Source: Nannobrachium achirus (taxonomy: Eukaryota > Chordata > Actinopteri > Myctophiformes > Myctophidae). Taken from it: DNA of 64,000 nucleotides. Positions within the stretch are counted from its first letter, which is position 1. Every line of letters begins with the position of its first letter. The notes beneath the pieces were generated by a model. That model was not told the origin of the DNA. It made no database searches and saw only the letters and a list, made by a program, of their open reading frames with translations. Below, in pieces: positions 12,220-59,430 of the stretch. The position numbers and the translations under genes are program-made. The stretch is from contig OY997640.1 of NCBI GenBank assembly GCA_963921795.1, positions 10,359,737-10,423,736 on the forward strand, written 5' to 3'.

Positions 12220-13294
12220 TCTAGGCCTAAAGGGTGTTATTGGTATTATGATGATGGAGAAAAGTTGGGGTATAATCTGAAGGCATTGAGATCATTTCAA
12301 GCCCTCATTACAAGGTCAAATAAAAGCTGATGGCTGACATGTTCCCAAGGCCAAAGTTAATTTCAGATGAATATTTTATAATGCCACATTCTAGCTTGAA
12401 AACTAGTGGGAAACAATATCTTAACTGTGTTGTTTTTAGACAACAATAAGTTAGACAGTAGACACTTATTTTTATAATGAGTCATAGTTTGTTAACTGGT
12501 AATTATGAAAACGTTTCCTTTCAATACAGTACTTGATTTATTTCTATGTAGGTGTGATCTAGGTACGGTATGAAACAATGTCCACTTAACTGTATTGTTT
12601 TCAATAGTAGGCCTATATTTGATTGTGTTTTGTGCTTGCGGTGTCTGTTCGTAATGTGTTTTATAATCATTTCATTTTGTGTCATTTTACAGGCAGAAGC
12701 TGAAATAGAGAAGAAGGGAAGCTGAAAGATGGAAGAGGGGAAGCTGAAAGATGGAAGAGGAGTATTGAAATTGTGACGAGAACTTGAATATGGAGAGAAG
12801 TCGAGGTATTAGTTAGATCTGAAGGCATTGAGATCATTTCACTCCATCAGACAAGGTAAGCTAAAAGCTGATCTCTGACATGTTCACAAACGCAGCCTGG
12901 GGTCGACGTCAGCAAGGAAATGCGGTCGCAAAAGGCCCCTTATTGTAAATGGCTCTGGATTAAGAGCGTTTGAAAATATGTTCTTTGATCTGCATTTGAA
13001 TGTGTTTGTAACCTATGTGTATAGCTTTGGTGTAGATTATTGATGTTTGGATTTCATAGATTTTTATGAATAGGTTCTTGGTTTACCTACATTTTTAGTT
13101 GACTACTTCTAGGCATTTGATATGTGGCCGCCCTGGTGTCGCGGTTAGAGCACACGCCTTTCCCATCATGGGATCAAACGAGGCCGGGGTAGACGCCAGC
13201 AAGGAAATGCGGTCGAAATGGCCCCTTATTCTAAATAGTTTGAAAATATCTTCTTTGACTTCTTTTATTACTTCTAGGCATTTGATATGGGGCC
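12220..13294 (+). repeat. tandem array, diverged left edge
   Basis: It starts with an old copy of the array block (GGCATTGAGATCATTTCAAG at 12282-12301; TTTTTAGACAACAATAAG). A D-type exon-like segment follows (12693-12855), then two decayed tRNA-like units (about 12890-12965 and 13124-13225). A third begins at 13286 and is broken by the BEL/Pao LTR at 13295. Confidence 0.7.
12693..12855 (+). other. exon-like segment D (first copy)
   Basis: It is flanked by CATTTTACAG and ACAAG|GTAAGC, a strong acceptor and donor. The body is GA-rich (GCTGAAATAGAGAAGAAGGG). Later copies start at 19137, 21823, 25457, 30034, 36902, 41477, 45112, 47242, 49890 and 52336, each about 141 nt. A last copy near 59083 has lost the acceptor. 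No frame is open throughout, so if it is spliced it is non-coding. Confidence 0.5.
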
Positions 13295-13754
13295 TGTAGA
13301 TTAACTACGTTCAAAATGAATAATTCCACAGGAGGACGTAAAATAATGTAATAGAAGTCTTTGCTTTATATAGGAAAAAAGGGTAACAAGAAAAAAAGGT
13401 ACAGAGATCCTTTGTAAATAAATCTTTTGTTGGCTTTCTAGTTCTGATGCTCTGCTGCTACTCAGTTAAGAGTCAGGAAGTAATCTCTCTAACTCCCGGT
13501 CTTTTTACGCTACGCCTTATGGGAGTTGAAGTTCTAGACAATTCAAGCAAATAGAAAATCGGTCTCAGATCCTTTTAACCCAAACACTGGATTATGAATT
13601 CAATTCCTTTTAACTGTAAATAGCAACATTTAACTAAAGTAAATATAAATAATTAATAGCAGCTTTTTAACTCAATGCCATGTCATGAAATATAATCACA
13701 ATGAAATATTATAAGCATAAATGAACTTAATTAACTCACTAATACGTTACAACA
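13295..13754 (-). repeat. BEL/Pao 3' LTR (element on minus strand)
   Basis: In element orientation it starts TGTTGTAACG and ends TTAATCTACA (TG...CA). A purine tract (GGGGGGGAGGA, element sense) lies immediately upstream at 13755 onward, as expected for a 3' LTR. It is inserted into a tRNA-like unit of the array after GATATGGGGCC. Confidence 0.75.
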
Positions 13755-14027
13755 TCCTCCCCCCCATGAACTACTGTTCATTAAATCTCAAGACAGTACA
13801 GTAACTGAACAGGTCTCCTTAGCAAAGTCGGACCATGCACGACCTGACAAGTCCATCTCGGCCTGTAAACAGTTCTGTGATTCTTCCCAGTTTCCAGGTT
13901 TGTCTGTCTTCTCTGATGAGCACCACGTCACCCACTTTCACTGGGGTGGGTGTCAGTGTGGCACAGCGGTGCGCTGACTTCAGGTCTAACAGGTAGTCCT
14001 TACGCCAGGCATTCCAAAAGCTGGTTG

Positions 14028-14888
14028 TTAGTCTCTGCCTGTACTTCCATCTTCAAGTGATCTCTGCCTTGTTGGCAGTTGGGTGCTGTGTGTCAGCAGG
14101 GAAGGAGAGGTCAGTCGTTTTCCCACCAGGAAGTGGGCTGGGGTCAGTGGCTGTGGTTCATCCACTTCATTGTTCACAAAGGTCAGCGGCCTTGAGTTTA
14201 CGATAGCCTCCACTTCGGTCAGTACTGTGCACATCTCTTCAAAGTTTAGTGAGGCTTTCCCAAGGACTTTCTTCAGGCAGGTTTTTACTGATCGGACGAG
14301 TCTCTCCCAGAATCCACCCCACCAGGCTGCTCGCTCTGCGATGAACTTCCAGGTGACGCCTTTTTCTGAGAAGAACTCTAGTAGCTGGGGTTCTTTGATA
14401 GCTTTCCACAGCTCTTTGAGGTCCTGATCAGCTCTCTTGAACGTTCTGGCATTGTCTGAGTAGATTATTTTGCATAATCCTCTTCTCGCGATGAATCTCT
14501 TAAGCGCTAACAGGAATGGCTCTGTTGACTGATCTGTGACCAGTTCCAGGTGTACTGCTCTGGTTACAGCACAGGTGAATAGTGCAATGTATAGCTTCTT
14601 CACAGAGTCATCTGCCTTCACATAAAGCGGCCCTGCAAAATCCACACCTGTGACTTCGAATGGTGGGGATTGAGTTATTCTGTCTTTGAGCAAGGGCACA
14701 GTAATCTGCTGTGCAGCTTTTGCTTTGAATCGTTTACATCCGGCCACAGTGCTCTTGACTAGCTGCCTGGCACGCAGGATCCAGTATCTCTCTCTCACTT
14801 GTACAAGAGTGTCTCTCACTCCTGAGTGCATCACTTTTTCATGACAGCTCTGTATCAGCAGTTCTGAGTATCTGTTTTTATTGGGCAT
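14028..14888 (-). pseudogene. BEL/Pao integrase domain, remnant
   Basis: The 286-residue frame has the H2C2 zinc-binding region (HEKVMHSGVRD...C) and the catalytic D,D-E core: Asp in TGVDFAGPLY, Asp in IYSDNARTF and Glu in WWGGFWERLVRSVK. NSRPLTFV and LTPAHFLVGKRL follow, typical of BEL/Pao integrases. The zinc-binding second Cys appears as Arg (GCKRFKA instead of CxxC), and the frame breaks near the C-terminus (after LPTRQRSLEDG). The surrounding polyprotein has stops, so it is not a functional gene. Confidence 0.85.
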
Positions 14889-15127
14889 AATTCATGGATG
14901 CTGCTCTCTCTATGTGAAGTCGGATGCTGCAGCCTTCCTCCCACACTGAGCAGCTCGTGCTCATCCAGGAAAGGTTTGAGTTCTTTGATTTTACAGTCAT
15001 TGTGAAGGGCCTTTTCTGTCTCCAGTTGTTTTATTTCTTGGCTGAAGCTCTGTTTCTGTGTTGTCTTGATCCAGTATTTTTCTGGTTCACTGGTTCAGTG
15101 GGGTCTGTGTCGTTGGCAGCAAGCTGC

Positions 15128-15911
15128 ACAGTGATCTGTTGGCTGGACTTTAGTTCTGCATTCACTGCAACATAGTCGTGTTCAGTCTCCTCTGACTGAT
15201 CAGGTGATGTCAGAACGCTGGGCCCGTTCCACCATAGCTGGTTCTGTATCAGGCTCTCAACACTTTGTCCTCTTGTGGGGAGGTCAGCTGGATTGACCTT
15301 TCCTGCGATGTGAGACCACGTCTCAGGGTTGGATCTCGGTCACTCTGTTTGCAACAAACTGTTTCCACTTCTGAGTTGAGCTGCAGATTTTCACGTAAGT
15401 ATTAACTGAGTAAGTATGGAAAGATTTCCCCTTTACTTTACAGGTAATATACAGTTGCAGTGCATCCAGGAGATGATTTCTACATGATATTGTAAATGTT
15501 CATTATTTATGTTTTAGATTCAGTGATCTGTTGGCTGGACTTTAGTTCTGCATTCACTGCAACATAGTCGTGTTCAGTCTCCTCTGACTGATCAGGTGAT
15601 GTCAGAACGCTGGGCCCGTTCCACCATAGCTGGTTCTGTATCAGGCTCTCAACACTTTGTCCTCTTGTGGGGAGGTCAGCTGGATTGACCTTTCCTGCGA
15701 TGTGAGACCACGTCTCAGGGTTGGATCTCGGTCACTCTGTTTGCAACAAACTGTTTCCACTTCTGAGTTGAGCTGCAGATTTTCACGTAAGTATTAACTG
15801 AGTAAGTATGGAAAGATTTCCCCTTTACTTTACAGGTAATATACAGTTGCAGTGCATCCAGGAGATGATTTCTACATGATATTGTAAATGTTCATTATTT
15901 ATGTTTTAGAT
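15128..15911. repeat. 393-bp tandem duplication spanning the BEL/array junction
   Basis: 15128-15520 and 15521 to about 15911 are nearly identical. Each copy holds the 5' part of the BEL fragment plus adjoining array sequence. The duplication therefore happened after the BEL insertion and shows that the array kept expanding. Confidence 0.85.
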
Positions 15912-17729
15912 TCTTTGATATGGGGCCGCCCTGGTGTCGCGGTTAGAGCACACGCCTTTCCCGTCGTGGGTTCAAACGCAACCGGGGTCGACGTCAGTGT
16001 GGAATTGCGGTCGCAACGGGCCCCTTATTGTAAGATGAAGATGAAGAAGAGAAGAGGAAATAAGAAGATGAAGAGGGACATAATGAAGAGAATACAATGA
16101 TGAAGAGGAGGTTGTATGCGTGCCTGATTTTCACGTAAGTATTAACTGAGTAAGTATGGAAAGATGTCCCCTTTACTTTACAGGTCATATACAGATGCAG
16201 TGCATCCAGGAGATGATTTCTACATGATATTGTAAATGTTCATTGTTTATGTTTTGGATTCTTTGATATGGGGCCGCCCTGGTGTCGCGGTTAGAGCACG
16301 CGCCTTTCCCGTCGTGGGTTCAAACGCAGCCAGGGTCGACGTCAGCAAGGAAACGCGGTCGCAAAGGGACCCTTATTCTATAGGGGCCGCCCTATTGTAG
16401 CTGTTTGAGCACACGCCTTTCCCGTCGTGGGTTAAAACGCAGCCGGGGTCGACGTCAACGTGGAATTGCGGTCCCTGCGGGCCCCTTATTGTAAGATGAA
16501 GATGAAGAAGAGAAGAGGAAAAAAGAAGATGAAGAGGGACATAATGAAGAGAATACAATGATGAAGAGGAGGTTGTATGCGTGCCTGATTTTCACGTAAG
16601 TATTAACTGAGTAAGTATGGAAAGATTTCCCCTTTACTTTACAGGTCATATACAGTTGCAGTGCATCCAGGAGATGATTTCTACATAATATTGTAAATGT
16701 TTATTATTTATTTTTTACGTTTTTTGATCTGTATTGTAATGTGTTCGTTTGATAGGCATCCTATCGTCAGACGAACATTTTATAATTCTTCCTTCTAGCT
16801 TGTTAACAAGGTAAGTGGGAAATAATCTGTCTTTAACTGTATTGTTTTTATTATTGTTTTTAGACAACAATAAATGTTTTTCTTTTGTTATAATACCTCC
16901 TACTGTAGCTTGTTAACTGGTAATCATGAATATGTTTCCCTTCACTACAGTACTACGCACCTGCTTTATTTTCATCTAGGTATAATCTAGGTATGGTATG
17001 AAACAATGTTTACTTGACTGTATTGTTCTAAATTTCATTTCTGACTTGTTGGATTCTTGTTGTTTTTAATATATAGTGTATCTAATCTACTTTCCTTTTC
17101 TTTTTTTTACAGGTTCCTCTCCGAAGGAACCATCACCTTATCGTGGTGGAGAGGTTTGCGTGCCCCAATGAACCTGGGAGCTGTGTTGTCTGGTGCCTAG
17201 TGCTCCTGGAAGGGTCTCCCATGGCAAATTGGTCTCTGGCGAGGGGCCTGACTAAGAATGGTTCAAGAAGACCCAAAGAGGATGAGATCATTTCACTCCA
17301 CCAGACAAGGTAAGCTAAAAGCTGATCTCTGACATGTTCACAAGTCCAAAGATAATCTCAGACAAACATCTGATATTTGATATGGGGCCGCCCTGGTGTC
17401 GCGGTTAGAGCACACGCCTTTCCCGTTGTGGGTTCAAACGCAGCCGGGGTCGACGTCAGCAAGGAAACGCGGTCGCAACGGGCCCCTTATTGTAAGATGA
17501 AGATGAAGAAGAGAAGAGGAAATAAGAAGATGAAGAGGGACATAATGAAGAGAATACAATGATGAAGAGGAGGTTGTATGCGTGCCTGATTTTCACGTAA
17601 GTTTTAACTGAGTAAGTATGGAAAGATGTCCCATTTACTTTACAGGTCATATACAGTTGCAGTGCATCCAGGAGATGATTTCTACATGATATTGTAAATG
17701 TTCATTGTTTATGTTTTAGATTCTTTGAT
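15912..17729 (+). repeat. tandem array, left edge with GA-rich units and first B segment
   Basis: The tRNA-like units here have the older form CCCTGGTGTCGCGGTTAGAG, followed by a GA-rich stretch (AAGATGAAGATGAAGAAGAG) and GATTTTCAC|GTAAGTATT. The first B exon-like segment begins at 17113 after a pyrimidine tract. Two further tRNA-like units follow from about 17384. Confidence 0.75.
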
Positions 17730-18356
17730 ATGGGGCCGCCCTAGTGTTGCTGTTAGAGCACACGCCTTTCCCGTCGTGGGTTCAAACGCAGCCGGGGTCG
17801 ACGTCAGCAAGGAAACGCGGTCGCAATGGGCCCCTTGTTCTGAATAGGGGCCGCCCTAGTGTAGCTGTTAGAGCACATGCCTTTCCCGTCGTGGGTTCAA
17901 ACGCAGCTGGGGTCGACGTCAGCGTGGATTCGCGGTCGCAACGGGCCCCATATTGTAAATCGCTCTGGATCAAGACCTGCTTGATTTTCACGTAAGTATT
18001 TTAATGTGTTCGTTTGATAGGCATCCTATCTTCTAGGCATGTGATATGGGGCCGCCCTAGTGTTGCTGTTAGAGCACACGCCTTTCCCGTCGTAGGTTCA
18101 AACGCAGCCGGGGTCGACGTCAGCAAGGAAACGCGGTCGCAATGGGCCCCTTGTTCTGAATAGGGGCCGCCCTAGTGTTGCTGTTAGAGCACACGCCTTT
18201 CCCGTCGTGGGTTCAAACGCAGCTGGGGTCGACGTCAGCGTGGAATTGCGGTCGCAACGGGCCCCATATTGTAAATCGCTCTGGATCAAGACCTGCTTGA
18301 TTTTCACGTAAGTATTTTAATGTGTTCGTTTGATAGGCATCCTATCGTCAGACGAA
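17730..18356 (+). repeat. 316-bp dimer array, group 1 (about 2 monomers)
   Basis: Each 316-bp monomer carries two tRNA-like units. Unit 1 ends CAGCAAGGAAACGCGGTCGC and unit 2 ends TCAGCGTGGAATTGCGGTCG. The closing part is GATTTTCAC, then GTAAGTATTTTAATGTG. The group ends with the hairpin GATAGGCATCCTATC followed by GTCAGACGAAC. Confidence 0.85.
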
Positions 18357-18676
18357 CATTTTATAATGCTTCCTTCTAGCTCCATATCAAGGTAAGTGAG
18401 AAATAATATGTCCTTAGCTGTATTGTTTTAATTATTTTTAGACAACAATAAATGTATTTTTTAATGCCTCCTACTGTAGCTTGTTAACTGGTAATCATGA
18501 AAATGTTTCCCTTCACTACAGTACAACACAGGCTTTATTTTTATCTAAGTATAATCTAGGTAAGGTATGAAACAATGTTTACTTAACTGTACTGTTTCTA
18601 AATTTCATTTCTGACTGTCTGATTCTTGTTGTTTGTAATATACTGTATATCTAATCTACTTTTCTTTTTTTTACAG

Positions 18677-18904
18677 GTTCCTCTCCGAAGGAACCATCAC
18701 CTTAACGTGGTGGAGAGGTTTGCGTGCCCCAATGAACCTGGGAGCTATGTTGTCTGGTGCCTTGTGCTCCTGGAAGGGTCTCCCATGGCAAATTGGTCTC
18801 TGGGGAGGGGCCTGACTAAGAATGGTTCAAGAAGACCCAAAGAGGATGATGAAGAGTATTAGTTCGATCTGAGGCATTGAGGTCATTTCACTCCATCAGA
18901 CAAG
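18677..18904 (+). other. exon-like, hairpin-rich segment B (representative copy)
   Basis: It is preceded by a pyrimidine tract and TTTTTTACAG and closes with ACAAG|GTAAGC. It begins with two adjacent hairpins, GGTTCC...GGAACC and CACC...GGTG. All copies carry an open frame (VPLRRNHHLNVVERFACPNE...). Between edge and core copies I count four amino-acid changes (I/N, G/E, C/Y, A/G) and one silent change (CTA/CTT), which does not suggest protein selection. Other copies start at 17113, 21363, 24997, 27756, 36442, 39201, 44652, 46782, 49430, 51876, 53838, 55716 and 57408 (14 in all). I do not know the family. Confidence 0.5.
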
Positions 18905-19470
18905 GTAAGCTAAAAGCTGATCTCTGACAAGGCCAGATGATTTAAGGCGAACATTTTTATAATGCCTCCTTCTAGCTTGATAACAAGGTAAGTGGGAACT
19001 AATCTCTCCTGATGTAGGTGTGATCTAGGTAAGGTATGTCCACTTAACTGTATTGTTTTCAAATGCATATTTGATTGTGTTTTGTGCGTCTTTAATGTGT
19101 TTTCTCATAATCATTTCATTTTGTGTCATTTTACAGGCAGATGCTGAAATGGAGAAGAAGGGAAGCTGATTGATGGAAGAGGAGAATTGAAATTGTGACG
19201 AGAACTTGAAGATGGAGAGAAGTTCAGTATAAGTTCCATCAGAAGGCATTTGAGATCATTTCACTCCATCAGACAAGGTAAGCTTGCTTTTCACTTAAGT
19301 ATTAACTGAGTAAGTATGGAAAGATGTCCCCTTTACTTAAGGTAATTTACAGTTGCAGTGCATCCAGGAGATGATTCCTACATAATATTGTAAATGTTTG
19401 TTATTTATTTTAAAAAATTGGTTCTTGGTTTACCTACGTTTTTAGGTTACTACTTCTAGGTATGTGATAT

Positions 19471-21044
19471 GGGGCCGCCCTAGTGTTGCTGTTAGAGCAC
19501 ACGCCTTTCCCGTCGTGGGTTCAAACGCAGCCGGGGTCGACGTCAGCAAGGAAACGCGGTCGCAATGGGCCCCTTGTTCTGAATAGGGGCCGCCCTAGTG
19601 TAGCTGTTAGAGCACACGCCTTTCCCGTCGTGGGTTCAAACGCAGCTGGGGTCGACGTCAGCGTGGAATTGCGGTCGCAACGGGCCCCATATTGTAAATC
19701 GCTCTGGATCAAGACCTGCTTGATTTTCACGTAAGTATTTTAATGTGTTCGTTTGATAGGCATCCTATCTTCTAGGCATGTGATATGGGGCTGCCCTAGT
19801 GTTGCTGTTAGAGCACACGCCTTCCCCGTCGTAGGTTCAAACGCAGCCGGAGTCGACGTCAGCAAGGAAACGCGGTCGCAATGGGCCCCTTGTTCTGAAT
19901 AGGGGCCGCCCTAGTGTAGCTGTTAGAGCACACGCCTTTCCCGTCGTGGGCTCAAACGCAGCTGGGGTCGACGTCAGCGTGGAATTGCGGTCGCAACGGG
20001 CCCCATATTGTAAATCGCTCTGGATCAAGACCTGCTTGATTTTCACGTAAGTATTTTAATGTGTTCGTTTGATAGGCATCCTATCTTCTAGGCATGTGAT
20101 ATGGGGCCACCCTAATGTTGCTGTTAGAGCACACGCCTTTCCCGTCGTAGGTTCAAACGCAGCCGGGGTCGACGTCAGCAAGGAAACGCGGTCGCAATGG
20201 GCCCCTTGTTCTGAATAGGGGCCGCCCTAGTGTAGCTGTTAGAGCACACGCCTTTCCCGTCGTGGGCTCAAACGCAGCTGGGGTCGACGTCAGCGTGGAA
20301 TTGCGGTCGCAACGGGCCCCATATTGTAAATCGCTCTGGATCAAGACCTGCTTGATTTTCACGTAAGTATTTTAATGTGTTCGTTTGATAGGCATCCTAT
20401 CTTCTAGGCATGTGATATGGGGCCGCCCTAGTGTTGCTGTTAGAGCACACGCCTTTCCCGTCGTAGGTTCAAACGCAGCCGGGGTCGACGTCAGCAAGGA
20501 AACGCGGTCGCAATGGGCCCCTTGTTCTGAATAGGGGCCGCCCTAGTCTAGCTGTTAGAGCACACGCCTTTCCCGTCTTGGGTTCAAACGCAGCTGGGGT
20601 CGACGTCAGCGTGGATTTGCGGTCGCAACGGGCCCCATATTGTAAATCGCTCTGGATCAAGACCTGCTTGATTTTCACGTAAGTATTTTAATGTGTTCGT
20701 TTGATAGGCATCCTATCTTCTAGGCATGTGATATGGGGCCGCCCTAGTGTTGCTGTTAGAGCACACGCCTTTCCCGTCGTAGGTTCAAACGCAGCCGGGG
20801 TCGACGTCAGCAAGGAAACGCGGTCGCAATGGGCCCCTTGTTCTGAATAGGGGCCTCCCTAGTGTAGCTGTTAGAGCACACGCCTTTCCCGTCGTGGGTT
20901 CAAACGCAGCTGGGGTCGACGTCAGCGTGGAATTGCGGTCGCAACGGGCCCCATATTGTAAATCGCTCTGGATCAAGACCTGCTTGATTTTCACGTAAGT
21001 ATTTTAATGTGTTCGTTTGATAGGCATCCTATCGTCAGACGAAC
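19471..21044 (+). repeat. 316-bp dimer array, group 2 (5 monomers)
   Basis: Five monomers run head to tail at exact 316-bp spacing (equivalent points at 19521, 19837, 20153, 20469 and 20785). Differences are a few point changes, for example GGTTC versus GGCTC in the second B-box. Confidence 0.9.
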
Positions 21045-22156
21045 ATTTTATAATGCTTCCTTCTAGCTCCATATCAAGGTAAGTGGGAAATAATATGTCC
21101 TTAGCTGTATTGTTTTAATTATTTTTAGACAACAATAAATGTATTTTTAATGCCTCCTACTGTAGCTTGTTAACTGGTAATCATGAAAATGTTTCCCTTC
21201 ACTACAGTACAACACAGGCTTTATTTTTATCTAAGTATAATCTAGGTAAGGTATGAAACAATGTTTACTTAACTGTACTGTTTCTAAATTTCATTTCTGA
21301 CTGTCTGATTCTTGTTGTTTGTAATATACTGTATATCTAATCTACTTTTCTTTTTTTTACAGGTTCCTCTCCGAAGGAACCATCACCTTAACGTGGTGGA
21401 GAGGTTTGCGTGCCCCAATGAACCTGGGAGCTATGTTGTCTGGTGCCTTGTGCTCCTGGAAGGGTCTCCCATGGCAAATTGGTCTCTGGGGAGGGGCCTG
21501 ACTAAGAATGGTTCAAGAAGACCCAAAGAGGATGATGAAGAGTATTAGTTCGATCTGAGGCATTGAGGTAATTTCACTCCATCAGACAAGGTAAGCTAAA
21601 AGCTGATCTCTGACAAGGCCAGATGATTTAAGGCGAACATTTTTATAATGCCTCCTTCTAGCTTGATAACAAGGTAAGTGGGAACTAATCTCTCCTGATG
21701 TAGGTGTGATCTAGGTAAGGTATGTCCACTTAACTGTATTGTTTTCAAATGCATATTTGATTGTGTTTTGTGCGTCTTTAATGTGTTTTCTCATAATCAT
21801 TTCATTTTGTGTCATTTTACAGGCAGATGCTGAAATGGAGAAGAAGGGAAGATGATTGATGGAAGAGGAGAATTGAAATTGTGACGAGAACTTGAAGATG
21901 GAGAGAAGTTCAGTATAAGTTCCATCAGAAGGCATTTGAGATCATTTCACTCCATCAGACAAGGTAAGCTTGCTTTTCACTTAAGTATTAACTGAGTAAG
22001 TATGGAAAGATGTCCCCTTTACTTAAGGTAATTTACAGTTGCAGTGCATCCAGGAGATGATTCCTACATAATATTGTAAATGTTTGTTATTTATTTTAAA
22101 AAATTGGTTCTTGGTTTACCTACGTTTTTAGGTTACTACTTCTAGGTATGTGATAT

Positions 22157-28492: not shown

Positions 28493-28493
<1 letters not shown>

Positions 28494-28541
<48 letters not shown>
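28494..28541. repeat. (TG)24 microsatellite
   Basis: 48 nt here, against 46 nt in the duplicate at 39939-39984. Confidence 0.9.
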
Positions 28542-28542
<1 letters not shown>

Positions 28543-29223
28543 ACATCTCTTAGCTGGCTGGTGGTCCACGACCACTGTCTGTTTCAGTGGTCCCCCTGTC
28601 CTAATCAGCACACAGTCCCATAAAGAAATAGTGCTATCAGAGTCTCTGATTCAGAGATCTGTCTCTCTCTCTCTCTCTCTCTCAAGACACAAAAAAATTA
28701 TAATTCGCCATATAAATGCTTCTAAAACATACCTGAGAATGATGATGGTTGATTAGTATCCACAGGTTACTGTATAATCCATATATCCAGGCTATAATAT
28801 ATTGTTTTGTAATGGTCCACAAGCAGCCAAGCAGGCCATTGTCAACAGGCGGTCCTTTGCAAAAGGGGGTCCCTGGGGGGTCCGCGGGCTCAACGCTTCG
28901 CTCAGCAGAGCAGTGGGAACACGATAATCAACTCTTACAAAATCAATCAATAAAACTGCCCGATTACATAAAGTTCACACGACGCGATCCAGTTGATTCA
29001 GAGACAAGTGAAGTGGTCCCTGAAAGGGGGTCCGTCCTCTCACTACCCTGCCTGGTCTCCAGCCAACACTTCTCAAGGGTGGTGGTCGTGGACCACCACC
29101 AAAACTCCCACGCTCCTCCAAAAAAGCAAGAGATCAACTAGTGTTGATTACTAACGAGCAAAGACGCAGAGGAGCTGTTTAGCAGGGCAGTGCAGAGGAT
29201 TTTTTTAGGGGCAGGGGGAGACA

Positions 29224-39937: not shown

Positions 39938-39985
<48 letters not shown>

Positions 39986-47575: not shown

Positions 47576-49108
47576 GGGGCCGCCCTAGTGTTGCTGTTAG
47601 AGCACACGCCTTTCCCGTCGTAGGTTCAAACGCAGCCGGGGTCGACGTCAGCAAGGAAACGCGGTCGCAATGGGCCCCTTGTTCTGAATAGGGGCCGCCC
47701 TAGTGTAGCTGTTAGAGCACACGCCTTTCCCATCGTGGGCTCAAACGCAGCTGGGGTCGACGTCAGCGTGGAATTGCGGTCGCAACGGGCCCCATATTGT
47801 AAATCGCTCTGGATCAAGACCTGCTTGATTTTCACGTAAGTATTTTAATGTGTTCGTTTGATAGGCATCCTATCTTCTAGGCATGTGATATGGGGCCGCC
47901 CTAGTGTTGCTGTTAGAGCACACGCCTTTCCCGTCGTAGGTTCAAACGCAGCCGGGGTCGACGTCAGCAAGGAAACGCGGTCGCAACGGGCCCCATATTG
48001 TAAATCGCTCTGGATCAAGACCTGCTTGAATTTCACGTAAGTATTTTAATGTGTTCGTTTGATAGGCATCCTATCTTCTAGGCATGTGATATGGGGCCGC
48101 CCTAGTGTTGCTGTTAGAGCATACGCCTTTCCCGTCGTAGGTTCAAACCTAGCCGGGGTCGACGTCAGCAAGGAAACGCGGTCGCAATGGGCCCCTTGCT
48201 CTGAATAGGGGCCGCCCTAGTGTAGCTGTTAGAGCACACGCCTTTCCCGTCGTGGGTTCAAACGCAGCTGGGGTCGACGTCAGCGTGGAATTGCGGTCGC
48301 AACGGGCCCCATATTGTAAATCGCTCTGGATCAAGACCTGCTTGATTTTCACGTAAGTATTTTAATGTGTTCGTTTGATAGGCATCCTATCTTCTAGGCA
48401 TGTGATATGGGGCCGCCCTAGTGTTGCTGTTAGAGCACACGCCTTTCCCGTCGTAGGTTCAAACGCAGCCGGGGTCGACGTCAGCAAGGAAACGCGGTCG
48501 CAATGGGCCCCTTGTTCTGAATAGGTACCGCCCTAGTGTAGCTGTTAGAGCACACGCCTTTCCCGTCGTGGGCTCAAACGCAGCTGGGGTCGACGTCAGC
48601 GTGGAATTGCGGTCGCAACGGGCCCCATATTAGATAGATAGATAGATAGATAGATACCTTTATTATCCCAAGGGGGAAATCGAGGGGGAAATCAAGGGGG
48701 AAATTGTAAATCGCTCTGGATCAAGACCTGCTTGATTTTCACGTAAGTATTTTAATGTGTTCGTTTGATAGGCATCCTATCTTCTAGGCATGTGATATGG
48801 GGCCGCCCTAGTGTTGCTGTTAGAGCACACTTCTTTCCCGTCGTAGGTTAAAACGCAGCCGGGGTCGACGTCAGCAAGGAAACGCGGTCGCAATGGGCCC
48901 CTTGTTCTGAATAGGGGCCGCCCTAGTGTAGCTGTTAGAGCACACGCCTTTCCCGTCGTGGGTTCAAACGCAGCTGGGGTCGACGTCAGCGTGGAATTGC
49001 GGTCGCAACGTGCCCCATATTGTAAATCGCTCTGGATCAAGACCTGCTTGATTTTCACGTAAGTATTTTAATGTGTTCGTTTGATAGGCATCCTATCGTC
49101 AGACGAAC
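47576..49108 (+). repeat. 316-bp dimer array, group 9 (5 monomers, one half-deleted)
   Basis: Monomer 2 lacks about 109 bp. Its first unit (ending AAGGAAACGCGGTCGC) passes straight into the end of a second unit (AACGGGCCCCATATTG) near 47985, as expected for recombination between its two tRNA-like halves. The GATA stub is at about 48631-48704. Confidence 0.88.
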
Positions 49109-50223
49109 ATTTTATAATGCTTCCTTCTAGCTCCATATCAAGGTAAGTGGGAAATAATATGTCCTTAGCTGTATTGTTTTAATTATTTTTAGACAACAAT
49201 AAATGTATTTTTTAATGCCTCCTACTGTAGCTTGTTAACTGGTAATCATGAAAATGTTTCCCTTCACTACAGTACAACACAGGCTTTATTTTTATCTAAG
49301 TATAATCTAGGTAAGGTATGAAACAATGTTTACTTAACTGTACTGTTTCTAAATTTCATTTCTGACTGTCTGATTCTTGTTGTTTGTAATATACTGTATA
49401 TCTAATCTACTTTTTTTTTTTTTTTACAGGTTCCTCTCCGAAGGAACCATCACCTTAACGTGGTGGAGAGGTTTGCGTGCCCCAATGAACCTGGGAGCTA
49501 TGTTGTCTGGTGCCTTGTGCTCCTGGAAGGGTCTCCCATGGCAAATTGGTCTCTGGGGAGGGGCCTGACTAAGAATGGTTCAAGAAGACCCAAAGGGGAT
49601 GATGAAGAGTATTAGTTCGATCTGAGTCATTGAGGTAATTTCACTCCATCAGACAAGGTAAGCTAAAAGCTGATCTCTGACAAGGCCAGATGATTTAAGG
49701 CGAACATTTTTATAATGCCTCCTTCTAGCTTGATAACAAGGTAAGTGGGAACTAATCTCTCCTGATGTAGGTGTGATCTAGGTAAGGTATGTCCACTTAA
49801 CTGTATTGTTTTCAAATGCATATTTGATTGTGTTTTGTGCGTTTTTAATGTGTTTTCTCATAATCATTTCATTTTGTGTCATTTTACAGGCAGATGCTGA
49901 AATGGAGAAGAAGGGAAGCTGATTGATGGAAGAGGAGAATTGAAATTGTGACGAGAACTTGAAGATGGAGAGAAGTTCAGTATAAGTTCCATCAGAAGGC
50001 ATTTGAGATCATTTCACTCCATCAGACAAGGTAAGCTTGATTTTCACTTAAATATTAACTGAGTAAGTATGGAAAGATGTCCCCTTTACTTAAGGTAATT
50101 TACAGTTGCACTGCATCCAGGAGATGATTCCTACATAATATTGTAAATGTTTGTTATTTATTTTAAAAAAATGGTTCTTGGTTTACCTACGTTTTTAGGT
50201 TACTACTTCTAGGCATGTGATAT

Positions 50224-51555
50224 GGGGCCGCCCTAGTGTTGCTGTTAGAGCACACGCCTTTCCCGTCGTAGGTTCAAACGCAGCCGGGGTCGACGTCAGC
50301 AAGGAAACGCGGTCGCAATGGGCCCCTTGTTCTGAATAGGGGCCGCCCTAGTGTAGCTGTTAGAGCACACGCCTTTCCCGTCGTGGGCTCAAACGCAGCT
50401 GGGGTCGACGTCAGCGTGGAATTGCGGTCGCAACGGGCCCCATATTGTAAATCGCTCTGGATCAAGACCTGCTTGATTTTCACGTAAGTATTTTAATGTG
50501 TTCGTTTGATAGGCATCCTATCTTCTAGGCATGTGATATGGGGCCGCCCTAGTGTTGCTGTTAGAGCATACGCCTTTCCCGTCGTAGGTTCAAACCTAGC
50601 CGGGGTCGACGTCAGCAAGGAAACGCGGTCGCAATGGGCCCCTTGCTCTGAATAGGGGCCGCCCTAGTGTAGCTGTTAGAGCACACGCCTTTCCCGTCGT
50701 GGGTTCAAACGCAGCTGGGGTCGACGTCAGCGTGGAATTGCGGTCGCAACGGGCCCCATATTGTAAATCGCTCTGGATCAAGACCTGCTTGATTTTCACG
50801 TAAGTATTTTAATGTGTTCGTTTGATAGGCATCCTATCTTCTAGGCATGTGATATGGGGCCGCCCTAGTGTTGCTGTTAGAGCACACGCCTTTCCCGTCG
50901 TAGGTTCAAACGCAGCCGGGGTCGACGTCAGCAAGGAAACGCGGTCGCAATGGGCCCCTTGTTCTGAATAGGGGCCGCCCTAGTGTAGCTGTTAGAGCAC
51001 ACGCCTTTCCCGTCGTGGGCTCAAACGCAGCTGGGGTCGACGTCAGCGTGGAATTGCGGTCGCAACGGGCCCCATATTAGATAGATAGATAGATAGATAG
51101 ATACCTTTATTATCCCAAGGGGGAAATCGAGGGGGAAATCAAGGGGGAAATTGTAAATCGCTCTGGATCAAGACCTGCTTGATTTTCACGTAAGTATTTT
51201 AATGTGTTCGTTTGATAGGCATCCTATCTTCTAGGCATGTGATATGGGGCCGCCCTAGTGTTGCTGTTAGAGCACACGCCTTTCCCGTCGTAGGTTAAAA
51301 CGCAGCCGGGGTCGACGTCAGCAAGGAAACGCGGTCGCAATGGGCCCCTTGTTCTGAATAGGGGCCGCCCTAGTGTAGCTGTTAGAGCACACGCCTTTCC
51401 CGTCGTGGGTTCAAACGCAGCTGGGGTCGACGTCAGCGTGGAATTGCGGTCGCAACGTGCCCCATATTGTAAATCGCTCTGGATCAAGACCTGCTTGATT
51501 TTCACGTAAGTATTTTAATGTGTTCGTTTGATAGGCATCCTATCGTCAGACGAAC
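50224..51555 (+). repeat. 316-bp dimer array, group 10 (4 monomers)
   Basis: Last homogenised group, with the GATA stub at about 51079-51151. The following B copy at 51876 carries CTTAACTTGGTGG instead of CTTAACGTGGTGG. Confidence 0.88.
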
Positions 51556-52669
51556 ATTTTATAATGCTTCCTTCTAGCTCCATATCAAGGTAAGTGGGAA
51601 ATAATATGTCCTTAGCTGTATTGTTTTAATTATTTTTAGACAACAATAAATGTATTTTTTAATGCCTCCTACTGTAGCTTGTTAACTGGTAATCATGAAA
51701 ATGTTTCCCTTCACTACAGTACAACACAGGCTTTATTTTTATCTAAGTATAATCTAGGTAAGGTATGAAACAATGTTTACTTAACTGTACTGTTTCTAAA
51801 TTTCATTTCTGACTGTCTGATTCTTGTTGTTTGTAATATACTGTATATCTAATCTACTTTTCTTTTTTTTTACAGGTTCCTCTCCGAAGGAACCATCACC
51901 TTAACTTGGTGGAGAGGTTTGCGTGCCCCAATGAACCTGGGAGCTATGTTGTCTGGTGCCTTGTGCTCCTGGAAGGGTCTCCCATGGCAAATTGGTCTCT
52001 GGGGAGGGGCCTGACTAAGAATGGTTCAAGAAGACCCAAAGAGGATGATGAAGAGTATTAGTTCGATCTGAGTCATTGAGGTAATTTCACTCCATCAGAC
52101 AAGGTAAGCTAAAAGCTGATCTCTGACAAGGCCAGATGATTTAAGGCGAACATTTTTATAATGCCTCCTTCTAGCTTGATAACAAGGTAAGTGGGAACTA
52201 ATCTCTCCTGATGTAGGTGTGATCTAGGTAAGGTATGTCCACTTAACTGTATTGTTTTCAAATGCATATTTGATTGTGTTTTGTGTGTTTTTAATGTGTT
52301 TTCTCATAATCATTTCATTTTGTGTCATTTTACAGGCAGATGCTGAAATGGAGAAGAAGGGAAGCTGATTGATGGAAGAGGAGAATTGAAATTGTGACGA
52401 GAACTTGAAGATGGAGAGAAGTTCAGTATAAGTTCCACCAGAAGGCATTTGAGATCATTTCACTCCATCAGACAAGGTAAGCTTGATTTTCACTTAAGTA
52501 TTAACTGAGTAAGTATGGAAAGATGTCCCCTTTACTTAAGGTAATTTACAGTTGCAGTGCATCCAGGAGATGATTCCTACATAATATTGTAAATGTTTGT
52601 TATTTATTTTTAAAAATTGGTTCTTGGTTTACCTACGTTTTTAGGTTACTACTTCTAGGTATGTGATAT

Positions 52670-55600
52670 GGGGCCGCCCTAGTGTTGCTGTTAGAGCACA
52701 CGCCTTTCCCGTCGTGGGTTCAAACGCAGCCGGGGTCGACGTCAGCGTGGAATTGCGGTCGCAACGGGCCCCTTATTGTAAGATGAAGAAGAGAACAGGA
52801 AATAAGAAGATGAAGAGGGACATAATGAAGAGAATACAATGATGAAGAGGAGGTTGTATGCGTGCCTGATTTTCACGTAAGTATTAACTGAGTAAGTATG
52901 GAAAGATGTCCCCTTTACTTTACAGGTCATATACAGATGCAGTGCATCCAGGAGATGATTTCTACATAATATTGTAAATGTTCATTATTTATGTTTTAGA
53001 TTCTTTGATATGGGGCCGCCCTGGTGTCGCGGTTAGAGCACACACCTTTCCCGTCGTGGGTTCAAACGCAGCCGGGGTCGACGTCAGCAAGGAAACGCGG
53101 TCGCAAAGGGACCCTTATTCTATAGGAGCCGCCCTAGTGTAGCTGTTTGAGCACACGCCTTTCCCGTCGTGGGTTCAAACGCAGCCGGGGTCGACGTCAG
53201 TGTGGAATTGCGGTCGCAACGGGCCCCTTATTGTAAGATGAAGATGAAGAAGATGAAGAGGGACATAATGAAGAGAATACAATGATGAAGAGGAGGTTGT
53301 ATGCGTGCCTGATTTTCACGTAAGTATTAACTGAGTAAGTATGGAAAGATTTCCCCTTTACTTTACAGGTCATATACAGTTGCAGTGCATCCAGGAGATG
53401 ATTTCTACATAATATTGTAAATGTTTATTATTATTTTTTTTACGTTCTTTGATCTGTATTGTAATGTGTTCGTTTGATAGGCATCCTATCGTCAGACGAA
53501 CATTTTATAATTCTTCCTTCTAGCTTGTTAACAAGGTAAGTGGGAAATAATCTGTCTTTAACTGTATTGTTTTTATTATTGTTTTTAGACAACAATAAAT
53601 GTTTTTCTTTTGTTATAATACCTCCTACTGTAGCTTGTTAACTGGTAATCATGAATATGTTTCCCTTCACTACAGTACTACGCACCTGCTTTATTTTCAT
53701 CTAGGTATAATCTAGGTATGGTATGAAACAATGTTTACTTGACTGTATTGTTCTAAATGTCATTTCTGACTTGTTGGATTCTTGTTGTTTTTAATATATA
53801 GTGTATCTAATCTACTTTTCTTTTCTTTTTTTTACAGGTTCCTCTCCGAAGGAACCATCACCTTATCGTGGTGGAGAGGTTTGCGTGCCCCAATGAACCT
53901 GAGAGCTGCGTTGTCTGGTGCCTAGTGCTCCTGGAAGGGTCTCCCATGGCAAATTGGTCTCTGGCGAGGGGCCTGACTAAGAATGGTTCAAGAAGACCCA
54001 AAGAGGATGAGATCATTTCACTCCACCAGACAAGGTAAGCTAAAAGCTGATCTCTGACATGTTCACAAGTCCAAAGATAATCTCAGTCAAACATTTGATA
54101 TTTGATATGGGGCCGCCCTGGTGTCGCGGTTAGAGCACACGCCTTTCCCGTCGTGGGTTCAAACGCAGCCGGGGTCGACGTCAGCATGGAATTGCGGTCG
54201 CAACGGGCCCCTTATTGTAAGATGAAGATGAAGAAGAGAAGAGGAAATAAGAAGATGAAGAGGGACATAATGAAGAGAATACAATGATGAAGAGGAGGTT
54301 GTATGCGTGCCTGATTTTCACGTAAGTATTAACTGAGTAAGTATGGAAAGATGTCCCATTTACTTTACAGGTCATAAACAGTTGCAGTGCATCCAGGAGA
54401 TGATTTCTACATGATATTGTAAATGTTCATTGTTTATGTTTTAGATTCTTTGATATGGGGCCGCCCTGGTGTCGCGCCCTGGTGTCGACGTCAGCAAGGA
54501 AACGCGGTCGCAAAGGGACCCTTATTCTATAGGGGCCGCCCTAGTGTAGCTGTTTGAGCACACGCCTTTCCCGTCGAGGGTTCAAACGCAGCCGGGGTCG
54601 ACGTCAGCGTGGAATTGCGGTCGCAACTGGCCCCTTATTGTAAGATGAAGAAGAGAAGAGGAAATAAAAAGATGAAGAGGGACATAATGAAGAGAATACA
54701 ATGATGAAGAGGAGGTAGTATGCGTGCCTGATTTTCACGTAAGTATTAACTGAGTAAGTATGGAAAGATTTCCCCTTTACTTTACAGGTCATATACAGTT
54801 GCAGTGCATCCAGGAGATGATTTCTACATGATATTGTAAATGTTCATTTTTTATGTTTTAGATTCTTTGATATGGGGCCGCCCTGGTGTCGCGGTTAGAG
54901 CACACGCCTTTCCCATCGTGGGTTCAAACGCAGCCGGGGTCGACGTCAGCAAGGAAACGCGGTCGCAAAGGGACCCTTATTCTATAGGGGCCGCCCTAGT
55001 GTAGCTGTTTGAGCACACGCCTTTCCCGTCGTGGGTTCAAACGCAGCCGGGGTCGACGTCAGCGTGGAATTGCGGTCGCAACGGGCCCCTTATTGTAAGA
55101 TGAAGATGAAGAAGAGAAGAGGAAATAAGAAGATGAAGAGGGACATAATGAAGAGAATACAATGATGAAGAGGAGGTTGTATGCGTGCCTGATTTTCACG
55201 TAAGTATTAACTGAGTAAGTATGGAAAGATTTCCCCTTTACTTTACAGGTCATATACAGTTGCAGTGCATCCAGGAGGTGATTTCTACATAATATTGTAA
55301 ATGTTTATTATTTATTTTTTACGTTCTTTGATCTGTATTGTAATGTGTTCGTTTGATAGGCATCCTATCGTCAGACGAACATTTTATAATTCTTCCTTCT
55401 AGCTTGTTAACAAGGTAAGTGGGAAATAATCTGTCTTTAACTGTATTGTTTTTATTATTGTTTTTAGACAACAATAAATGTTTTTCTTTTGTTATAATAC
55501 CTCCTACTGTAGCTTGTTAACTGGTAATCATGAATATGTTTCCCTTCACTACAGTACTACGCACCTGCTTTATTTTCATCTAGGTATAATCTAGGTATGG

Positions 55601-58470
55601 TATGAAACAATGTTTACTTGACTGTATTGTTCTAAATGTCATTTCTGACTTGTTGGATTCTTATTGTTTTTAATATATAGTGTATCTAATCTACTTTTCT
55701 TTTCTGTTTTTACAGGTTCCTCTCCGAAGGAACCATCACCTTATCGTGGTGGAGAGGTTTGCGTGCCCCAATGAACCTGAGAGCTGTGTTGTCTGATGCC
55801 TAGTGCTCCTGGAAGGGTCTCCCATGGCAAATTGGTCTCTGGCGAGGGGCCTGACTAAGAATGGTTCAAGAAGACCCAAAGAGGATGAGATCATTTCACT
55901 CCACCAGACAAGGTAAGCTAAAAGCTGATCTCTGACATGTTCACAAGTCCAAAGATAATCTCAGACAAACATTAGATTTTTCATATGGGGCCGCCCTGGT
56001 GTCGCGGTTAGAGCACACGCCTTTCCCGTTGTGGGTTCAAACGCAGCCGGGGTCGACGTCAGCAAGGAAACGCGGTCGCAAAGGGACCCTTATTCTATAG
56101 GGGCCGCCCTAGTGTAGCTGTTTGAGCACACGCCTTTCCCGTCGTGGGTTCAAATGCAGCCGGGGTCGACCTCAGCGTGGAATTGCGGTCGCAACGGGCC
56201 CCTTATTGTAAGATGAAGATGAAGAAGAGAAGAGGAAATAAGAAGATGAAGAGGGACATAATGAAGAGAATACAATGATGAAGAGGAGGTTGTATGCGTG
56301 CCTGATTTTCACGTAAGTATTAACTGAGTAAGTATGGAAAGATTTCCCCTTTACTTTACAGGTCATATACAGTTGCAGTGCATCCAGGAGGTGATTTCTA
56401 CATAAGATTGTAAATGTTTATTATTTATTTTTTACGTTCTTTGATCTGTCTTGTAATGTGTTCGTTTGATAGGCATCCTATCGTCAGACGAACATTTTAT
56501 AATTCTTCCTTCTAGCTTGTTAACAAGGTAAGTGGGAAATAATCTGTCTTTAACTGTATTGTTTTTATTGCGACCGTAAGTCGCATTTACTACCAAAACC
56601 TCCACAGGCTGTCTGTGAGTGAGTGAGTCCGTCACACTTTTGCCCTGCTCATATCTCCCCCATCCATGCCAAATTTTGCACACACACTCCTTACCTGCCA
56701 AACCTGCCAGGTCCCTGGGGGACCCCCAGGTGTAAAAAATGTCCGTCCGTGAGTCATACGTCACACGTCACACTTTTGCCCTGCTCATATCTCCACAACC
56801 GTTGCCTCCATCCATGCCAACTTTTGCACACACACTCCTTACCTGCCAAACTACTACCTCCAAGGACCCCCCGGAGCTCCAGGGACCCCCAGGTCCCTGG
56901 GGGACCCCCAGGTGTAAAAAATGACCAAATGTGCAAAAATGACCACCCCCACGGAGCTGCTCACGGGGAATTCCTGGGGACCACCCACTTCTGGTGCTCC
57001 AGAACGGATGCAAAAGTGGTGGCGCCCTCCACTGCAGCTCACATAAAATGCCCTAACTTTGCCTAGGAGCGTCCGGGAGAGCCGGGGCCGGTACCTATTC
57101 GTCCACCTACGGTCGCTTATCTCCCGATTAGGGAGTCTTACTGGTTATTGTTTTTAGACAACAATAAATGTTTTTCTTTTGTTATAATACCTCCTACTGT
57201 AGCTTGTTAACTGGTAATCATGAATATGTTTCCCTTCACTACAGTACTACGCACCTGCTTTATTTTCATCTAGGTATAATCTAGGTATGGTATGAAACAA
57301 TGTTTACTTGACTGTATTGTTCTAAATTTCATTTCTGACTTGTTGGATTCTTGTTGTTTTTAATATATAGTGTATCTAATCTACTTTTCTTTTCTTTTTT
57401 TTTACAGGTTCCTCTCCGAAGGAACCATCACCTTATCGTGGTGGAGAGGTTTGCGTGCCCCAATGAACCTGAGAGCTGCGTTGTCTGGTGCCTAGTGCTC
57501 CTGGAAGGGTCTCCCATGGCAAATTGGTCTCTGGCGAGGGGCCTGACTAAGAATGGTTCAAGAAGACCCAAAGAGGATGAGATCATTTCACTCCACCAGA
57601 CAAGGTAAGCTAAAAGCTGATCTCTGACATGTTCACAAGTCCAAAGATAATTTCAGACAAACATTTGATATTTGATATGGGGCTGCCCTGGTGTCGCGGT
57701 TAGAGCACACGCCTTTCCCGTCGTGGGTTCAAACGCAGCCGGGGTCGACGTCAGCAAGGAAACGCGGTCGCAAAGGGACCCTTATTCTATAGGGGCCGCC
57801 CTAGTGTAGCTGTTTGAGCACACGCCTTTCCCGTCGTGGGTTCAAACGCAGCCGGGGTCGACGTCAGCGTGGAATTGCGGTCGCAACGGGCCCCTTATTG
57901 TAAGATGAAGATGAAGAAGAGAAGAGGAAATAAGAAGATGAAGAGGGACATAATGAAGAGAATACAATGATGAAGGGGAGGTTGTATGCATGCCTGATTT
58001 TCACGTAAGTATTAACTGAGTAAGTATGGAAAGATTTCCCCTTTAATTACAGGTCATATACAGTTGCAGTGCATCCAGGAGATGATTTCTACATGATATT
58101 GTAAATGTTCATTATTTATGTTTTACATTCTTTGATCTGTATTTTAATGTGTTTGTTTGATAGGCATCCTCTCGTGAGACGAACATTTTATAATTCTTCC
58201 TTCTAGCTTGATAACAAGGTAAGTGGGAAATAATCTGTCTATAACTGAATTGTTTTAATTATTGTTTTTAGACAACAATACATGAAACTATTTTTGTTTT
58301 ATAATGCTTCTCACTAGCTGGTAATCATGGTGAGCATGTAGATTGGCTATTTTCACAATTTCTGCCTCTAATATTTGAGAATTTGGCCAATATTTAATTT
58401 GTCATTTTAGAGGTATTAAAAAGTCCTTACATTTTCCCTTTAGAAATGTCTATATACCCTCTATACACTA
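52670..58470 (+). repeat. tandem array, right edge (older type)
   Basis: Unit structure mirrors the left edge: tRNA-like units with CCCTGGTGTCGCGGTTAGAG, GA-rich tracts, GATTTTCAC|GTAAGTATT, and B segments at 53838, 55716 and 57408. A Helentron-like insertion lies at 56570-57144. The last 150 bp (58320-58440) include a half hairpin cassette that matches 3165-3250. Confidence 0.8.
56570..57144. mobile_element. Helentron-like non-autonomous element
   Basis: It is inserted next to TT in an array copy (GTTTTTATT / TTATTG). GCGACCGTA at the left end is matched by its complement TACGGTCGC at 57108-57116, which lies inside the right end. Beyond it is a hairpin (CTCCC-GATTA-GGGAG) and then TCTTACTGG. 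Asymmetric inverted repeats plus a terminal 3' hairpin and no longer target duplication fit Helentron-type rolling-circle elements. An internal segment (CACACTTTTGCCCTGCTCAT) is tandemly repeated. There is no coding capacity. Confidence 0.5.
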
Positions 58471-58953
58471 TTAAAGCTATACTGTGTAAGTTGCTCAACT
58501 AGTGGTCAGTAGCTCTATAGCAAACCGCGGTCGCGTCCGCGTCTTTCGGCCGTTTTTCGCCGCGGCCTCACACCCCCGTGTCTGCCTCCACCTCGCCGAG
58601 ATCTATCTTTAGAGGGGTCCCTGGTTCTTGTGCGTTCAGGCATTCCGGAGAAACGGACTCCTTCACCCGAGAATATGCTGTTGTTTTGTTGAGGCAAGCT
58701 ACTTCCTGAGAAGTCAGCAAGATGCGCTGTGATTGGCCGGCAGTGTATAACCCTCGCTGTGATTGGCCGGTAGTGTATGATGACGTAATTTTTCCGCCAA
58801 AACCGGACCCCGGCGAGGATCACAGAAAACATATAAAGAGAAGGCTTTAGAAGCTGAAAATAACGGAGTGGGTGTTCTAAAACTTTCGCAATTTAACAGT
58901 TAGGACAATTTTAAGATTTGTTTTATAAAAAAAGTTACATGGTATAACTTTAA
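58471..58953. mobile_element. 483-bp TTAA MITE with promoter-like GC-rich core
   Basis: The ends are TTAAAGCTATACTGTGTAA and its diverged complement TTACATGGTATAACTTTAA. The interior is CpG-rich with two GATTGGCCGG (inverted CCAAT) motifs. A 23-nt poly-C tract follows at 58963-58985. Confidence 0.75.
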
Positions 58954-58985
58954 GTTAATCATCCCCCCCCCCCCCCCCCCCCCCC

Positions 58986-59430
58986 AACTGTATTGTTTTC
59001 AAAAGCATCTTTGATTTCTTTTTTGCTCGCTCTTTGTAATGTGTTTTCTCATAATCATTTCATTGTGCGTGTCATTTTAAAGGCAAAAGCTGAAATAGAG
59101 AAGAAGGGAAGCTGAATAATTGAAGAGGGAAGCTGAATAATGGAAGAGGAGTATCGAAATTGTGACAAGAACTTGAAGATGGAGAGAAGTTCGGTATTTG
59201 TTCGATCTGAATTCTGAAGGCATTTGAGATAATTTCACTCCATCAGAAAAGATAAGCTAAAAGCTGATCCTTGACATGTTCCCAAGGCCAAAGATGATTT
59301 CAGATAAACATTTTTATAATGCCTCCTTCTAGCTTGATAACAACGCGAGTGTGAACTAATCTCTCCTTTAATTTGTACTGTAGGTTTGATCTTGGTAAGG
59401 TATGAAACAATGTCCATTTAACTGTATTGT
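58986..59430 (+). repeat. tandem array, terminal right fragment
   Basis: A decayed D block: CATTTTAAAGG replaces the acceptor CATTTTACAGG, and TCAGAAAAGATAAGC replaces the donor. The last recognisable array sequence is near 59430. Confidence 0.7.

Follow-up and report, generated by a model that had tools for sequence, protein, structure and literature searches.

The window analysed here is a 64-kb stretch of the genome of the myctophid fish Nannobrachium achirus (C3:10,359,737-10,423,736 of the 1.66-Gb assembly; other places are named below by contig and, where needed, by position in Mb). It holds a tandem array of units resembling transfer RNA (tRNA) and of exon-like segments, termed B, C and D. 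A preliminary description of this DNA left two readings side by side: a single noncoding RNA locus built from repeats, and a satellite that had captured a gene fragment. Our analysis joins parts of both. A promoter and first-exon module heads the array, and the gene fragment is what we take to be the decayed 5' end of gtpbp4. The idea of a single locus did not hold. The array belongs to a family of loci, defined by a module in constant orientation, conserved motifs and a characteristic unit structure.

Promoter module and array in the window

The features of the module and the array, all on the plus strand, are the following (a slash marks a splice junction).

7856..7950, plus: promoter 1, with GGACCAATGAGCGTGACG, an inverted CCAAT (ATTGG) and ATAAAC
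8570..8747, plus: predicted exon 1 (putative 5' limit), with a CTCF-like core at 8654 and the donor AG/GTAAAT at 8748
9176..9285, plus: promoter 2, with the X-box-like GTTGCTATGG at 9176, CCAAT at 9218 and the cyclic AMP response element (CRE) TGACGTCA at 9245
9491..9563, plus: conserved block that closes the promoter module
9574..10865, plus: insertion with a frame resembling open reading frame (ORF) 1 of a long interspersed nuclear element, with zinc knuckles (recognised by eye)
10866..12219, plus: predicted first intron
12249..12314, plus: predicted exon 2 (putative start)
12693..12855, plus: left-most D exon, with acceptor CATTTTACAG and donor GACAAG/GTAAGC
12874..57903, plus: 123 tRNA-like units, apparently derived from a short interspersed nuclear element (SINE), mostly in 316-bp dimers
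17113..17309, plus: first of 14 B exons
18677, 21363, 24997, 27756, 36442, 39201, 44652, 46782, 49430, 51876, 53838, 55716, 57408, plus: starts of the remaining B exons
18976..18987, plus: an example of microexon C (CTTGATAACAAG/GTAAGTGG)
19137..19277, plus: an example of a D exon of the array
21823, 25457, 30034, 36902, 41477, 45112, 47242, 49890, 52336, plus: starts of the other D exons of the array
59073..59253, plus: right-most D copy, decayed (donor GT gone), close to the end of the array

Seven promoters, representing about four lineages, were aligned: those of the window, C3 5.1, C3 6.6, C2, C4, C17 and C10. The CCAAT element GGACCAATGAGAG and the CRE TGACGTCA are identical in all seven. 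The exon-1 donor AG/GTAAAT is present in five of the six loci that include the site (window, C3 5.1, C3 6.6, C4 and C17) and is kept across local insertions and deletions (indels) in at least two; the C2 piece ends without covering it. The promoter-like region and 5' exon placed upstream on the same strand by the preliminary description are borne out by the donor CAG/GTAAAT at 8748 and by the conserved module at the head of the array. Promoter 1 is largely kept in C3 5.1, C3 6.6 and C4, CCAAT reading CCATT in C3 5.1, and the CTCF core is found in four of the six copies that include its place. Both CREs of the window, both X-box-like sites, the sole plus-strand CTCF core and four of ten CCAAT matches lie within 7600-9573. 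CTCF cores occur at 8654, in the module, and at 7367; none is in the array. Downstream of the promoters, the predicted first intron is wholly or partly homologous in six other 5' ends (C3 5.1, C3 6.6, C4, C2, C9 and C17). In the block formed by exon 2, its donor and the microexon, C17 and C20 share 97% identity across 185 bp, which could reflect constraint or exchange between loci. The insertion carries an open frame of 368 codons (9576-10682, plus strand) with zinc-knuckle motifs and no Pfam match above the cut-off; its site is empty in the four other copies aligned (C3 5.1, C3 6.6, C4 and C2).

Periods of 316 bp and about 115 bp span 15.9-58 kb of the window (Tandem Repeats Finder). A profile search gives 123 tRNA-like units, 121 of them at least 90 bp long, which pair into 57 dimers. 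Ten groups with at least five units each contain 106 units, half of which is 53, in agreement with the roughly 53 monomers of 316 bp in ten groups counted previously. The 14 B and 12 D segments described earlier were likewise reproduced, in number and limits, by probe searches; the 12 D segments match over most of the D length, and ten further short matches fall in the tail common to B. There are 27 matches to the C segment, some partial. Every probe match of the array is on the plus strand, and self-comparison of the window reveals no inverted near-identical copies.

The tRNA-like units do not have the structure that this earlier name suggests. ARAGORN finds no tRNA gene in the window, Rfam gives no match at gathering score across it, and no tRNA family is reached at E 5 in 15-24 kb or at E 10 in 57.6-58.0 kb. 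Five units, when folded, form hairpins, not cloverleaves. The 3' part of the unit corresponds to the tail of a short repeat that also occurs dispersed: among 188 tail matches in the sequence examined, four have no head within 300 bp, and three of these are isolated copies of the repeat outside unit arrays (window 5330-5370, L025 and L012). The 26 bp at 5343 match the array 54 times. The tail, TTGTAAATCGCTCTGGAT...GCGTCTGCTAAATG, would be that of fish tRNA-derived SINEs and suggests a fish origin; the tail letters have no match in the full texts searched. The window unit has the same tail, together with A- and B-box strings recognised by eye. Fish SINEs of this kind are dispersed singly, whereas the window units are dimerised and amplified inside a satellite unit. 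From its sequence, the unit looks like a dimerised, SINE-derived spacer. Two other identities were rejected. One is a C/D small nucleolar RNA, for which the sR5 and sR20 scores are weak and far under gathering. A derivation of unit U from promoter 2 rests on a match of 14 bp, reached by 0-23 of 200 shuffles depending on the pair, and this likeness is better explained by the dispersed tail common to both.

Several further observations concern the array. Two 8-kb segments, 24877-33094 and 36322-44537, are near-identical, and 4,599 bp within them (28496-33094 and 39939-44537) are 100% identical; either the segment was duplicated very recently or the assembly is in error here. Between 14000 and 58000, T exceeds A on the plus strand in most 2-kb steps, except at 28-30 and 40-42 kb, and G exceeds C in nearly all; both skews are weaker or absent in most flank steps. 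They fit plus-strand transcription but may reflect the composition of the units alone. Pieces of a BEL/Pao-like integrase (element name by eye; Integrase_H2C2 3.2e-8, rve 8.5e-7) lie on the minus strand at 14028-15339, in the start of the array, and the C3 6.6 copy holds DNA 93% similar to this region. A 392-bp tandem duplication at 15129-15913, which includes array intron, adjoins and partly overlaps these pieces. A GATA microsatellite with a 'cctttattatcccaagggggaaa' piece is found inside a dimer at 51079-51150. A similar piece from 5159-5185 matches ten places in the array, one of them at 26336, indicating that it was copied along with the units.

A family of loci with a common head

A genome search places the module at at least 20 sites on C2, C3, C4, C9, C10, C17, C19 and C20. 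This is a lower bound, as 40 of 129 candidates were scored (40 of 133 with a longer query). Eight copies are 91-100% identical to the query and twelve 65-77%. Two parts of the window, about 7,640-9,573 and 10,866-12,862, are homologous to the regions upstream of the C3 5.1, C3 6.6 and C4 arrays, in pieces of about 70-96% identity, and the region upstream of the C2 array has the same homology to the module. All five array 5' ends that were aligned start with the module in one orientation; its inner part is also found at C9 49.3 and C17. Among the 20 places, an array was seen with 13 modules (window, C3 4.9, 5.1, 6.4 and 6.7, C2, C4, C9 49.3, 56.5, 57.4 and 57.7, C17 and C20), and in all 13 it lies downstream on the strand of the module. 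This count includes the C3:6.43 module, from which the nearest array sequence read stops about 59 kb away.

Exon B occurs in arrays on C2, C3 and C4, and the other arrays read match that of the window in the kinds of parts they contain and in their order. The 30-bp core of B, with up to two mismatches, has 376 matches in the genome (196 plus, 180 minus), compared with none for a reversed control. The array lengths observed run from less than 10 kb to about 120 kb. The arrays are long, head to tail, homogenised per locus and present at several chromosomal places, as expected of a satellite or macrosatellite. Searches of the open-licence literature listed no described family of such loci.

The bodies behind the shared head differ. 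At C17, where the module is 67-80% like that of the window on the measure applied, the body consists of D, microexon C and a unit M with a period of 747 bp; no B and no SINE-like unit is present in the 4.5 kb read. At C9 (49.30 Mb), the module and the block of exon 2, donor and microexon are followed by M, there an unrelated-looking minisatellite. M arrays also occur on C13 and C18, and M lies, at 89% identity, at the 3' end of the B array at C3 6.6 Mb; M therefore belongs to this family. Three further C9 modules lead copies of D commonly spaced at 749-755 bp, and on C20 the exon-2 block is repeated, often every 786 bp, across 41 kb (40 candidates scored in each search, of 1112 and of 580). 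At C3:9.2599-9.2643 Mb, it is the exon-1 part of the module that is repeated, every 1,413 bp. The simplest history would be an ancestral unit made of D, C and M, which SINE dimers and B joined later in the C2/C3/C4 branch.

Outside the module, on its 5' side, the window contains two fragments that we identify, by likeness to the NOG1/GTPBP4 protein sequence, as presumed remains of gtpbp4.

4985..5133, minus: gtpbp4 exon-2-like fragment, frame-shifted and decayed
7204..7254, minus: gtpbp4 exon-1-like fragment (MAQLYNFKKIMVVSTAK followed by a GT donor)

Window 4911-5317 aligns at 77% to a C5 locus (L034) that bears the best NOG1_N (PF17835) exon, and window 7059-7449 matches at 78% the C5 region that precedes gtpbp4 (L040). 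Matches to NOG1_N comprise three exons on C5, apparently the intact gtpbp4, and four single copies of exon 2, one on C17 and three on C9. All four single copies are decayed, and each is oriented head to head with a module copy. Old D and C fragments, 73-97% like those of the window and with splice sites partly lost, lie upstream of the C5 gene; no clear module is found in the 8 kb read on that side, where there is one weak match (E 5e-4). The head-to-head copies and the old D and C fragments point to an origin of the family beside gtpbp4. Most likely, it grew from the upstream side of this gene and was dispersed by segmental duplication. A Kelch-repeat-like frame, recognised by eye, lies beside the C5 gene at L040:4010-5120.

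Splice signals, constraint and alternative readings

The acceptors and donors named in the preliminary description are present in the window, and its claim of a plus-strand bias holds in part. When sites are scored by position weights, a single type-I cycle contains seven strong donors on the plus strand and none on the minus strand (shuffles: mean 0.6, maximum 2). Its acceptors, one on each strand, are not in excess (shuffle mean 1.5), and in the type-II cycle both donors (two plus, one minus) and acceptors (three plus, none minus) stay inside the shuffle range (maxima 3 and 4). The bias is thus clear only for the donors of the type-I unit. Of 78 B copies from eight loci, 76 have ACAG as acceptor and 2 have CCAG; as donor, 76 have GTAAGC, 1 has GTAAGG and 1 has GTAACG. 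Microexon C is less conserved than the B sites, with AG in 74 and GT in 73 of the 78.

Three candidate identities of exon B were rejected. As coding sequence, it has an open frame in several lineages, but most changes are nonsynonymous, one lineage has a stop and Pfam gives no match. Nine lineage consensuses vary at seven of the first 56 codons: five change the amino acid (one of these also synonymously), one is synonymous and one becomes a stop. The longest ORF of the model transcript, 78 codons, is equalled by 16% of 300 shuffles, and stops interrupt D in three frames, as judged by eye. As a structured RNA, B gives fold z-scores of -0.2 and -0.4 and no Rfam match at gathering. No match to B was found in viruses, phages or prokaryotes using exact patterns, with a distant search of phages.

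On balance, we favour the reading that the family is a multi-copy noncoding transcription unit that was born beside gtpbp4 and spread by segmental duplication, and whose internal exons were amplified in different ways from locus to locus. The module at the head of each member would supply promoters with CCAAT, CRE and X-box-like sites, with a CTCF-like site in most copies read, then an exon with the AG/GTAAAT donor, an intron, an exon ending in ACAAG (at best followed by GTAAGC) and a 12-nt microexon before GTAAGTGG. Segmental duplication would have copied the module, often with the first gtpbp4 exons as a decaying passenger. Unequal crossing-over would then have grown internal exon and intron blocks into arrays, different ones at different loci, the block of the window taking up SINE dimers and the B exon. 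RNA polymerase II may start a plus-strand RNA at promoter 1, promoter 2 or both; exon 1 would be joined to the exon ending in ACAAG, and copies of C, B and D spliced in from the array. The predicted product is a long, repeat-rich noncoding RNA, with the SINE dimers left in introns or in long exons, while unequal exchange would alter the number of copies and sometimes the unit type. More tentatively, a start cassette that duplicates at twenty or more places might yield new noncoding genes, each with the same head under selection and a tandem body made from whichever block expanded (B with SINE dimers, D-C-M, M alone or exon 1 itself).

The serious rival, to which we give considerable though lesser credence, is a neutral macrosatellite: a duplicated region upstream of gtpbp4 whose fragments expand by unequal exchange, with promoter and splice signals as relics and no function in the family. 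A number of observations speak for this rival or against a maintained transcription unit. Unique substitutions within arrays (subgroups of fewer than three copies, 5 of 79 B and 2 of 25 D copies, left out) are equally dense in exon and intron: 40 at 1703 sites in exon B and 36 at 1669 in its intron, 7 at 423 in D and 9 at 465 in its intron. Variation is higher in the 25 bases immediately preceding the B acceptor (10 of 171), with no sign of protection there, and donor hexamers are substituted about as often as elsewhere (B 1 of 48, D 0 of 18). Between the two B types, microexon C differs on average at 3.8 of 12 sites, the B exon at 6 of 170 and its intron at 25 of 284. C17 and the window are identical at 123 of 140 sites of D (88%) and at 101 of 108 of its intron (94%), and D and its intron diverge alike in most of eight pairs compared. 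Splice sites are gone in several peripheral D copies; in most copies they are intact, at about the rate that low divergence would give. The exon-2 donor, GTAAGC in C17 and C9 and GTAAGA in C4, is weakened to ACAAG/GTCAAA in C3 5.1, C3 6.6, C2 and the window itself. The C10 module, just 65-70% like those of the window, C4 and C17, is without AG/GTAAAT, and its exon-1 part fails to align. The CTCF core is absent from C10 and from C17. Some arrays have no module among the matches listed, namely the B array at C3:10.914-10.924, whose 5' end was unread, and the M arrays on C13 and C18. The right flanks of the window and C3 6.6, the one pair compared, share short repeats only (seven scattered matches of up to 112 bp between the C3 6.6 3' end and 14.6 kb of the window's right side). 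Finally, common descent accounts for part of the agreement in orientation and motifs: among the seven promoters, those of the window, C3 5.1, C3 6.6 and C2 are close relatives. The near-identical 8-kb duplications and the lack of coding constraint also suit a neutral array.

An apparent deficit of variation in exon B relative to its intron (2.9 versus 21.8 per kb) proved to be an artefact of insertion-bearing copies. Indels number 1 event in exon B versus 17 in the intron, which is T-rich, where indels are expected. The preliminary description had named splice-site decay at the pace of the rest of the array as evidence against its own proposal; the equal mutation density of exons and introns within arrays does count against function there. 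Judged from these comparisons, the body of the array is probably not constrained base by base.

What a neutral macrosatellite accounts for less readily is the head. CCAAT and CRE are identical in all seven copies although these are 65-80% alike at the deep end, and the first donor is retained across indels. Between the window and C4, the module has 19 identity runs of at least 18, compared with a mean of 5.9 and a maximum of 15 in 300 shuffles; insertions of uneven age could raise this clustering.

The same contrast between head and body could arise if the loci were a family of germ-line precursors of PIWI-interacting RNAs (piRNAs), with conserved divergent promoters, freely changing bodies and a long RNA that is cut up, not built from exons. 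CCAAT, CRE, X-box-like and MYB-like sites are marks of germ-line promoters. The module is divergent from a coding gene fragment, contains the first three kinds of site and has nine MYB-like strings (shuffle mean 2.6; 4 of 500 shuffles reach nine). The MYB string is short and degenerate, however, and a repeat bearing splice sites would be left unexplained; we regard a piRNA family as unlikely. That the module and array move together as a transposable element, with the SINE-like dimers as its structural part, is very improbable: the many places on eight contigs and the dispersed repeat tail of the units would suit it, but the gtpbp4 exons on the outer side and the unlike left limits fit segmental duplication, and no common 3' flank was found in the one pair compared.

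Relation to known systems and significance

The transcription unit favoured here resembles several known systems in part. FIRRE is a single X-linked locus with local repeats that are rare elsewhere, and its R0 repeat is said not to seem to hold a canonical CTCF motif (PMC4820808). Like FIRRE and other long noncoding RNAs (lncRNAs) with local exonic repeats (PMC4820808), the window would carry many exon-like and intronic repeats in one predicted transcription unit, here 14 B and 12 D copies with splice sites. The single FIRRE-like locus of the preliminary description is contradicted by the 376 B-core matches and the module copies found across the genome: unlike FIRRE, the family consists of arrays that follow copies of a single promoter on many chromosomes, with a body that varies from locus to locus.

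The macrosatellites DXZ4 and D4Z4 are likewise long head-to-tail arrays of kilobase units that contain promoter elements and are homogenised per locus. In these, every unit has its own promoter, whereas the present family has one promoter module per array, and its units bear splice sites and SINE dimers. Mammalian pachytene piRNA loci keep their divergent promoters while the transcribed body changes fast, a conserved start and changing body also seen here; tandem exon-bearing arrays, which the window family has, are atypical of them.

Accounts of how repeat-rich lncRNAs such as FIRRE and XIST acquired their repeats have mostly had to rely on single loci that are old. A genome with about twenty loci that share a head but differ in how their bodies expanded would let this acquisition be watched. 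The family would show which of the exon blocks undergo expansion, whether selection acts on length or on sequence, and whether it is the RNA or the act of transcription for which the conserved promoter is retained. Should the loci prove silent, they would clearly exemplify how a gene neighbourhood with a promoter can become a macrosatellite, and they would call for caution in annotating lncRNAs.

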